Assembly: GCA_008330645.1 (NCBI GenBank)
Contig: VLTN01000024.1
Location: 411,233-475,232 of the forward strand
Reading direction: 5' to 3'
Length of the DNA: 64,000 nucleotides
From: Cafeteria roenbergensis
Lineage: Eukaryota; Sar; Bigyra; Bicosoecida; Cafeteriaceae
Shown here: positions 14,901 to 17,773 of the stretch, one piece after another
Numbering within the stretch: position 1 is the stretch's first letter
Layout: every line of letters begins with the position of its first letter
Made by a program: the position numbers and the translations under genes
The notes under the pieces: generated by a model
Seen by the model: the letters and a program-made list of their open reading frames with translations, nothing else
Databases searched by the model: none
Told to the model about the DNA's origin: nothing

Positions 14901-17773
14901 CGTCGTGGCTGGGGCTTGAGCGGGCGGTGGAGGCAGCGGGAGGCGCAGCGGCGGCGGGGGCGCCGTCGAGCGCCGGCAGCCCCGGCGTGCCGCTGGCTGC
15001 AGTGGAGGCAGCGGCGGCGATGCAGGTGCTGGCGGCCGCGGGTCCGGTCGCCGTCCTCGACGGCGGGGCTGCCATCGGAGCGGCCGGGGCTGCGGCTGGC
15101 ACACCGCAGGCGCTGTGGTCGGCCGTGGCGGAGGCGGAGGCGGCGGTGGGTGCCGTGGCGGAGTCGGGCTCGCCCGCCGAGGCCGCGGCTGCGGCTGCGG
15201 CCGCGGAGGCGGCGGCTGCCCGGCTGCGCCCGCTCGCCGCCGACCGCGTGGCGGCGCTGTGGCGCTGTCGTGCGCTGTGCGCTGCTGCGTCGGCGTGGAC
15301 CCACTTGGAGTGCCAGACGGCCCCTGGCGGCGGCGCTGGCTGCGGAAGCTGCGCTCCGGCTGCTGCGGCTGCCGCTGCGGCGGCCGCGTTCGAGAGCCTG
15401 ACAGGGCCGCAGGGCGCCACAGGGGGCGGCCGAGGGGCCGCTCTGGCCTGCGCCTGGGCGGGGCTGGCGGCGGCAGGGGCCTCGCTCCCCGCCCAGGCTG
15501 TGGCCCGCCGCGCTGTCGTTGCAGCTGCCGTCTGTGCGGGCCTGCTGGTCGGTCCGGCAGCGGCGCGCGTGGCCACGGCCGTGGCCGCTGGAGGGGAGGA
15601 GGGCGAAACCGCCGCAGCCGCCGCCCCCGCCGCCGCCACAGGCTGGGCCCGGCGCGCGATTGCAGCTGCGCGGGAGGCCGCTGCGGCAGGGGGCGCTGCT
15701 GGCGGATTCGATGCGGGCGTGCTGGCACGGCTGGCAGAGCTGCCTTCCCAGCCGGCCCCGGCGGTCTCCGCACGGGCAGCTGGCCTTCGGGGTGCGGCGA
15801 GGCACGGCACGCCCCCGGAGGCGCACGCTGTGCTGCCGAAGGACGCCGTCTCGCTCCAGGAGGCGCTGCTGCAGTGGCTGCCCGCCGGGGCCGGCGCGGG
15901 CTCGGCCGGCGCGGCGGGCGCGGCGTCGTCGCCGGGCGTGGCTGCCGGCGCTGCCGCCGACCCCACCGCCGCACCTGCCGGCGCTGCCGCCGCCTCTGTG
16001 GCTGCGTGGCGCGTGCGGCCGGGCGGGCCCGTGCTGCTTGCCTGGCACCGCGGCAGCGAGGGATGCGCCTGGCTGGCCGGGCCGCAGCAGTGGACAGGCC
16101 CGCCCCAGCAGACGGTGCGGCGGGCAGCGGCGCGCCTGCCTGGGGAGATCAGGCTTGTCGCTGCCTGGGCGGCGCCTGCAGGCGGCTCCGCGGCCGGCGG
16201 CGGCGCCTGCGTGGCCCGCTGGCCGCACCCCGAGGCAGAGCTGGAGGCCGTGCTGCTGACGTCGGGGCGGTCCGTGCGCGCCGGAGCGGCTCGCGGGGCC
16301 GACTGGCGGACGTCGGACCGGGCTAGGTGGTGGCGCGCGCGGGAGCACCAGGATGCCTGGCTGGAGTCGATGGCCCTCCGGCTGGCTCGGGCTCTCAGGG
16401 GGCCGGGGGACGCGGCCTCGCTCTCGGCCGGCCACGCGGCGGCGCCAGGGACCGACGGCGGCGCTTCCCCTTCGGCCGGATCAGGGGCCGATGCGAGCGA
16501 TGGCTCTGCCAGCGACGAGCCCGACGGCCCGCCAGCCCCGAGCGCGCCCCTGGCGCCTGTGGCAGACGAGCCGGGAGCGGCCGGTCAGGCGGCAGGTGTG
16601 GCAGCGGCTGCGGAGGAGCAGGAGGAGGTCGACGAGGGCGAGGAGCAGCAGGAGGAGGAGGATCTGCTCCCGCCCCCGCCGGCGGACGGGTGGGCGTCTC
16701 TTCGTGTGGTCGACCTGCGAGCCTTGCTGCGAGCGGCCGGGGCCAAGACCTCCGGCCTGAAGGCAGCCCTCGTCGCCCGCGTCGAACGGCTCTACCACGA
16801 GCAGGAGGCTGATAAGTCGCAAAGGAACGCCGCGCCAGCCACGCCAGCGCCCGCGGCGGCCGCGTCTGCCGCCGGGTCCGGCGGCCTCGCAAGCCAGGCC
16901 TCTGCGCCACGAGGAGCAGCGGCGGAACCTGTGGCCGTCCCAGCCGGGGCACCGGCGGCATCGCCCGGCACGGTCGCGGCTCCCAAGCAGAGCCACGCCG
17001 CGTGGCTGGCAGGGGCCACGAGCGTCCGGCTGTGCCTGGGGCCGGGGCTTGACGCGCTGCCCTGGGAGGCGGCGGTGGCCCGCTCGGCGCCCGACGCGGT
17101 GGTGGTGCGGGCCGCCCCGGTGCGGCTGGCTGGGGAGGCCGTCGGTCAGCTTGCCGAGCGGGGCCGGCCGGAAGACCAGCGGGAGGCGTCGCTGCTGCGC
17201 GGCGGCGCGGTGGTGAACCCGAGCGGCGACCTGTCGTCCACTGAGACAGCGGTCGTCACTGCGCTGCGGCGAGCGGTCGAGGCGGCGCCGCCCGCCGGCC
17301 TGGGAGGGCGCTGGCGCGTCCACGCTGGCACTGCTCCGGCAGAGGCCGAGTTCGTGGGCCTGGCCTCCCGGGGAGGGGCGTTCTTGTACTCTGGCCACGG
17401 AGCCGGGTTCAGCGTGTGCCCTGCGGACGCCATCGCAGCGTCGACGGCGCCGCTCGCTCCAGTGGCGCTGGTCATCGGGTGCTCCTCGCACCGGCCGGCC
17501 GGCAAGGGGTGGCTTGGCTCAGCGGTGCCCGCGCACTCGTACGCAGCAGGAGGCAGTGCCACGGCCGTGGGGTGCCTCTGGGACGTGACGGACGGCGACG
17601 TGGACAGGCTGACGGCGAGGCTGCTGGCGGCGGCCGCCGAGGCCAAGGACGCCTCGAGCGTGTCGGTGGGCGCCCTGCTGCGGGAGGCAAGGGCCGTCTG
17701 CCGGCTGCCGCACCTGACGGGCGCAGCCGTGGTATGCAGCGGCGTAGACTCGCTCGTCAGGCTTCGCAAGTGA
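8917..17773 (+). CDS. ESP1: Separase (C50 cysteine protease) with SAP motif and CDK-site repeats
   Basis: Two exons, 8917-9044 and 9148-17773, with a 103-bp intron (GTGAGC donor, TTTGCAG acceptor); 2,917 residues. The N-terminal 2,300 residues are Ala-rich helical sequence with disordered inserts, as in other separases, which vary greatly there. A Gly-Ser tract is encoded at 10600-10680. Four [14 protein letters not shown] repeats are encoded at 11483-11602, amid other TPGK/TPGR sites. An acidic tract precedes a SAP-like motif at residues of about 2558-2595. The protease core has LPWEAA, the catalytic His in YSGHGAG (His2793), the catalytic Cys in VIGCSS (Cys2821) and [11 protein letters not shown], all separase hallmarks; the His-Cys spacing of 28 is near the usual 26. 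Separase cleaves cohesin's kleisin subunit at anaphase onset. Its start is the first ATG in the exon that splices in phase. Confidence 0.93.
10600..10680 (+). repeat. Gly-Ser hexanucleotide repeat in separase
   Basis: About 13 tandem GGCAGC units (a few GGTAGC) encode an uninterrupted Gly-Ser tract in the disordered N-terminal half of separase. The reading frame is kept. It is a likely length-variable microsatellite. Confidence 0.9.
11483..11602 (+). repeat. Four 30-bp repeats encoding [10 protein letters not shown] in separase
   Basis: The units start at 11483, 11513, 11543 and 11573 and are nearly identical. The fourth ends in Trp instead of Arg. Each carries T-P-G-R, which fits the full CDK consensus S/T-P-x-K/R. 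Near-identity at the DNA level points to recent tandem duplication. Confidence 0.92.

Follow-up and report, generated by a model that had tools for sequence, protein, structure and literature searches.

The separase of the bicosoecid Cafeteria roenbergensis contains a SAP motif, and its presence in the gene is real and confirmed. The window analysed is the whole 64,000-nucleotide stretch of contig VLTN01000024.1, and the features discussed are collected in Table 1. Separase severs the links that hold sister chromosomes together, and SAP domains usually bind DNA. An earlier note on this DNA had assigned the segment to the SAP family from sequence alone, and the assignment is borne out by the Pfam model PF02037 (cut-off 23.9 bits), which gives 31.3 bits for the whole 3029-aa protein and 37.9 for a 73-aa segment. 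The core of the match lies in 34 residues encoded from window position 16691 onward, in the same frame as the protease.

Table 1. Features of the separase gene, in window coordinates; residue numbers (aa) take the frame's first codon as 1
Feature	Position	Strand	Basis
Separase gene, 3029 codons + stop	8684-17773	+	Open frame; Peptidase_C50 match
WR-motif helix (starting with a 14-residue stretch), alpha2 counterpart of the helical ('death') domain	16319-16426	+	WR motif; helix in low-confidence model
Acidic run, 12/19 D/E, aa 2642-2660	16607-16663	+	Composition
SAP domain, aa 2672-2703	16697-16792	+	PF02037 match, profile 4-35 of 37
SAP hairpin helices, aa ~2675-2685 and ~2690-2716	16706-16831	+	Predicted; AlphaFold2 58-aa model and low-confidence 495-aa model
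Low-complexity Ala/Pro/Gly/Ser linker, SAP to caspase-like domain	16832-17011	+	20-residue block composition; without in-frame Met
Caspase-like catalytic domain, aa 2779-2973	17018-17602	+	Peptidase_C50 match
Catalytic His2905 (GHG)	17396-17398	+	Five-sequence alignment
Catalytic Cys2933 (GCSS)	17480-17482	+	Five-sequence alignment

The separase gene and its SAP domain

The Peptidase_C50 model (PF03568) scores 84.2 bits in the 3029-aa protein (Pfam cut-off 27.8), and this frame gives the one C50 match found genome-wide. The two catalytic residues are invariant in an alignment with human, worm, Chaetomium and partial yeast separases (n=5). When PDB sequences were searched with the protein, the best nine of 41 rows were separases, and the others (E = 1.9e-7 and weaker) are mostly matches to Gly-Ser repeats. 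It is these domains that constitute the evidence for a separase gene, because long open frames are cheap at the GC content of the window (67-79% in 4-kb steps); an antisense frame of 1831 aa overlaps the separase ORF. An NCBIfam search returned no families for either query, and neither Rfam nor a tRNA scan gave anything in the window.

Several lines of evidence show that the SAP match is not an artefact of chance or composition, an explanation ruled out by the genome-wide E value, by shuffling and by a local SAP model. A six-frame profile search of the whole 36.3-Mb genome (36,303,456 bases in 167 contigs) gave the separase SAP an E value of 4.1e-8, fifth among the ten SAP matches listed. The local model was built from eight distinct SAPs of the same genome together with that of yeast Tho1, leaving out the separase SAP and dropping one segment (L006) that is a copy of another (L007), and it scores the separase core segment at 31.7 bits. 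None of 20,000 shuffles reached this value (the best of the 19,090 that were reported had 16.3 bits), and the next best among 795 window ORFs of at least 30 aa has 4.4 bits. In pairwise comparison the hairpin resembles the solved Tho1 SAP with z = 10.1 (0/2000 shuffles as good) and nine own-genome SAPs, two of them identical, with z from 2.4 to 8.7. The likeness to the latter is uneven, with 51 of 2000 shuffles scoring as well for L007 and its copy L006, 17 for L010 and two for L008. The Tho1 SAP (1h1j, 4uzw) also supplies the top two of four PDB rows returned for the hairpin, with E values (0.52 and 0.55) that are not significant alone, and the two share the patterns SL.VV.L..LL and GLK..LV.R; Tho1, unlike separase, is not a protease.

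Among the other SAP matches listed for the genome are a Ku70-like protein (L004), with a SAP at its C-terminus scoring 40.7 bits against PF02037, and a RING-SAP protein (L009), both named from sequence alone. Ku70 and RING-SAP proteins are classical SAP settings, and their recovery in the same search supports the separase SAP as genuine. The Ku70-like protein is like separase in having a SAP matched by PF02037, but is a different protein in which the domain is C-terminal. We also observed paired matches of nearly equal score (C36 and C100, C10 and C110; actin-family genes), and the SAP segments of L006 and L007 are identical, which suggests that some duplicate haplotype contigs are left in the assembly.

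The SAP segment alone is predicted to form a pair of helices with a short extension between them, as the earlier note had anticipated. This comes from AlphaFold2 models of 58 residues made from the single sequence (best of five pLDDT 74.1, the others 62.9-69.0), in which the second helix extends beyond the SAP match. Foldseek and VIA-align comparisons of this model gave no discrimination on so small a hairpin. A 495-aa model, also from a single sequence, is so poor (pLDDT 41.6) that the hairpin could not be located relative to the core.

Elsewhere in the separase frame there is a 30-bp tandem repeat of 3.9 copies with 100% matches (11482-11598, + strand, aa ~933-972) that encodes a repeated GKTPGR. 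The frame has seven full CDK-type sites ([ST]Px[KR]), of which those at 940, 950 and 960 are in the repeat array and that at 981 is just after it. In 500 shuffles the mean was 1.9 sites and the highest count eight, so the number alone is not beyond chance, and the array may be a phospho-regulatory cluster or a mere repeat. A CRCRCC sequence (aa 1897-1902; 14372-14389, + strand) fits the CxCxxC motif that one study reports in the regulatory domains of metazoan separases (PMC5921967), and is perhaps a coincidence because there is no His four to six residues upstream. Other genes of the window, all on the - strand, include a likely cell-surface adhesion protein (a 2520-aa frame, 51473-59032) in which teneurin-type EGF repeats accompany a putative ice-binding-like adhesive domain (pAdhesive_15, 115.9 bits), an Ion_trans channel protein (38775-42329; 170.9 bits in two stretches), and a P-type ATPase (32372-36136; 148.5 bits).

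Position of the SAP within separase

The SAP follows the WR-motif helix and precedes the caspase-like domain. The earlier note had described it as inside the protease half of the protein; it is indeed near the protease, but not within the caspase-like domain. Two further particulars held up: the acidic run that precedes it is real, and the distance to the catalytic His is 235 residues when measured from W2670. The residue numbers given then (2558-2595) are only approximate, being 112 below first-codon numbering with no Met at such an offset (the Met residues in the first 400 positions of the frame are at 36, 86 and 161).

Six helices precede the caspase-like domain in canonical separases, and the second carries a WR motif, WWxxRxxLD, according to Winter et al. 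(PMC4626109). The Cafeteria motif, WWRAREHQD (aa 2549-2557, within a 14-residue stretch), keeps four of the five fixed positions, with Leu changed to Gln; the worm motif FWKRRKIVD also departs from the consensus. Human separase (ESPL1; PDB 7nj1) similarly has a WR helix, a helical region, and a caspase-like domain with GHG and GCSS, and the order WR motif, helical region, protease is also that of the C. elegans (5mz6) and Chaetomium (5fc2) proteins. Human separase differs in having helices alpha3-alpha6 in the place of the SAP, and neither human nor C. elegans separase gives a Pfam SAP match in the segments tested. For these comparisons we took the part from WR motif to protease of the human, worm and Chaetomium proteins from PDB alignments, and assigned the helix limits ourselves, guided by PMC4626109.

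In the interval from the WR motif to the protease of the Cafeteria protein, the remainder of the WR helix is followed only by the acidic run and the SAP hairpin, set in low-complexity sequence; long low-complexity stretches flank the SAP on both sides. PF03568 aligns only from its column 214 (198 with the linkers removed), whereas it aligns from columns 69 and 72 in human and worm segments starting at the WR motif. From this start column and the content of the interval it follows that alpha3-alpha6 are missing, moved or unrecognisable, with the SAP in their place. Judged from sequence, then, the SAP occupies the place of the canonical helices alpha3-alpha6, which we could not recognise in this separase.

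This position raises the question of whether the hairpin is a diverged alpha5-alpha6 pair (or alpha3-alpha4) that has drifted towards a SAP-like sequence but is packed against the protease and lacks DNA binding. We regard this as unlikely, although it is the foremost of the alternatives that we considered. The position of the hairpin matches that of alpha3-alpha6 in the separases of human, worm and Chaetomium, and the hairpin is the one stretch of normal composition that we saw from the WR helix to the protease. With the linkers removed, the C50 model scores 95.5 bits with the hairpin present, compared with 91.4 when it is shuffled, 91.6 when it is replaced by the Ku70-like SAP and 91.6 when nothing is there (the protease alone scores 87.1 bits and the native 650-aa stretch 89.7). 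This gain of about 4 bits over the controls comes with an alignment that begins at the Tyr directly after the SAP match, and C50 leaves the whole of that match unaligned. The similarity of the hairpin to most of the SAPs tested is strong (z from 2.4 to 10.1), whereas against nine overlapping segments of human, worm and Chaetomium separases it is at chance (z from -1.5 to 1.5). The canonical helical domains of the different species are themselves no better than shuffles when compared pairwise (five comparisons, z from -0.7 to 1.5), and low similarity is thus compatible with a positional counterpart. The local SAP model scores the human and worm segments below 0 bits and does not report that of Chaetomium, and the long low-complexity flanks would be ill-suited to a core element. 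Pfam gave no family (E <= 10) for alpha3-alpha6 of human or worm separase, nor a SAP for longer segments of the two proteins. The idea that a SAP is a general property of separases was also considered, and is ruled out by the null results in human, worm and Chaetomium (three species only). Pattern scans for other separases, one each, gave 19 stretches in viral contigs and 11 in genome contigs, none of them a relative.

A separate concern is whether the SAP is part of the mature enzyme, as it would be absent if the stretch were intronic, alternatively spliced or belonged to another gene. Such a gene-model artefact seems very improbable. Cafeteria genomes average 1.67-1.89 introns per gene according to the genome report (PMC6972860), and the ease with which long frames stay open at this GC content also speaks for caution. 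Other parts of the ORF have 13 GT[AG][AC]G[TC] sites, of which that at 16274 immediately precedes the WR motif, and introns may therefore lie further upstream. However, the SAP and the protease share one open frame that is unbroken from the WR motif to the protease, with no GT[AG][AC]G within 16300-17100 and, from 16275 to 17538, no GT[AG][AC]G[TC]. The few introns that we read by eye (n=2) start with GTGAGC and GTGAGA. The last in-frame Met is at aa 2563, upstream of the SAP, and a separate downstream gene for the protease is rejected since there is no in-frame Met after it.

A possible DNA tether for separase

We consider it probable that the domain is a true SAP, flexibly tethered, through which separase has an affinity for DNA or chromatin in cis. 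The low-complexity flanks suggest a mobile module and not a part of the catalytic core. As proposed here, the basic SAP hairpin would bind DNA without sequence preference, and the flexible leash would keep the protease near chromosomal cohesin. By analogy with human separase, the effect would be a higher local concentration of the enzyme at its substrate and not a higher catalytic rate, and the acidic run upstream could compete for the basic face of the SAP and so tune the DNA contact.

Human separase provides a parallel for this proposed DNA role. The human securin-separase complex binds DNA in vitro without sequence specificity (KD ~300 nM for 50 bp), and DNA binding is reported to increase cleavage of DNA-associated substrates with the catalytic rate unchanged (PMC6858450). 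Cleavage of Scc1 needs DNA or RNA, according to the introduction of PMC4626109, and DNA interaction is mentioned as a possible source of specificity in PMC12609080. The earlier note had also stated that known separases make DNA contact through the N-terminal half; this was not confirmed, as the accessible text of PMC6858450 gives only the non-specific binding by securin-separase. A SAP within separase would, we infer, be a new way of tethering the protease to DNA, and a literature search, with most subscription papers outside its reach, found no publication tying separase to SAP.

A true SAP could alternatively bind a protein, such as a cohesin subunit or a regulator, instead of DNA, which we think somewhat less likely again than a diverged helix pair. 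The title of an SLX4 study links a SAP domain to MUS81-EME1 activation, and hence to protein contacts, and the adjacent acidic run could occupy the basic face of the SAP. Against this, the hairpin is basic (seven K/R and two D/E, net +5), and two of the SAPs in the same genome are in proteins that, from their sequences, appear to resemble DNA-repair proteins. DNA affinity in cis is the reading that we prefer, and there is a more novel reading that we hold to be more doubtful than either the protein-binding or the diverged-helix explanation. Here the SAP would have replaced the alpha3-alpha6 half of the helical domain of separase itself, and DNA contact in the hinge between WR helix and protease, competing with the acidic run, would control cohesin cutting, making this a DNA-gated separase.

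The presumed substrate, the cohesin kleisin, was also sought in the genome. Four SMC hinges were found, which fits the presence of cohesin and condensin, and a STAG search gave one match, below the cut-off. The Rad21/Rec8 N and C models (PF04825 and PF04824) have no matches in the whole genome. This null is not evidence of absence, because the 14 control genomes also barely matched (none with the N model and three with the C model, none above the cut-off), and it is likely due to intron splitting or divergence.

It is understood only in part how separase comes to be concentrated on chromosomal cohesin, and the Cafeteria SAP is a compact and separable candidate DNA-binding module, in which a deletion of ~35 residues would test the contribution of DNA with the protease untouched. 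It would also show that, in a lineage of eukaryotes that has been little sampled, an enzyme central to mitosis has acquired a domain or taken one in by exchange.
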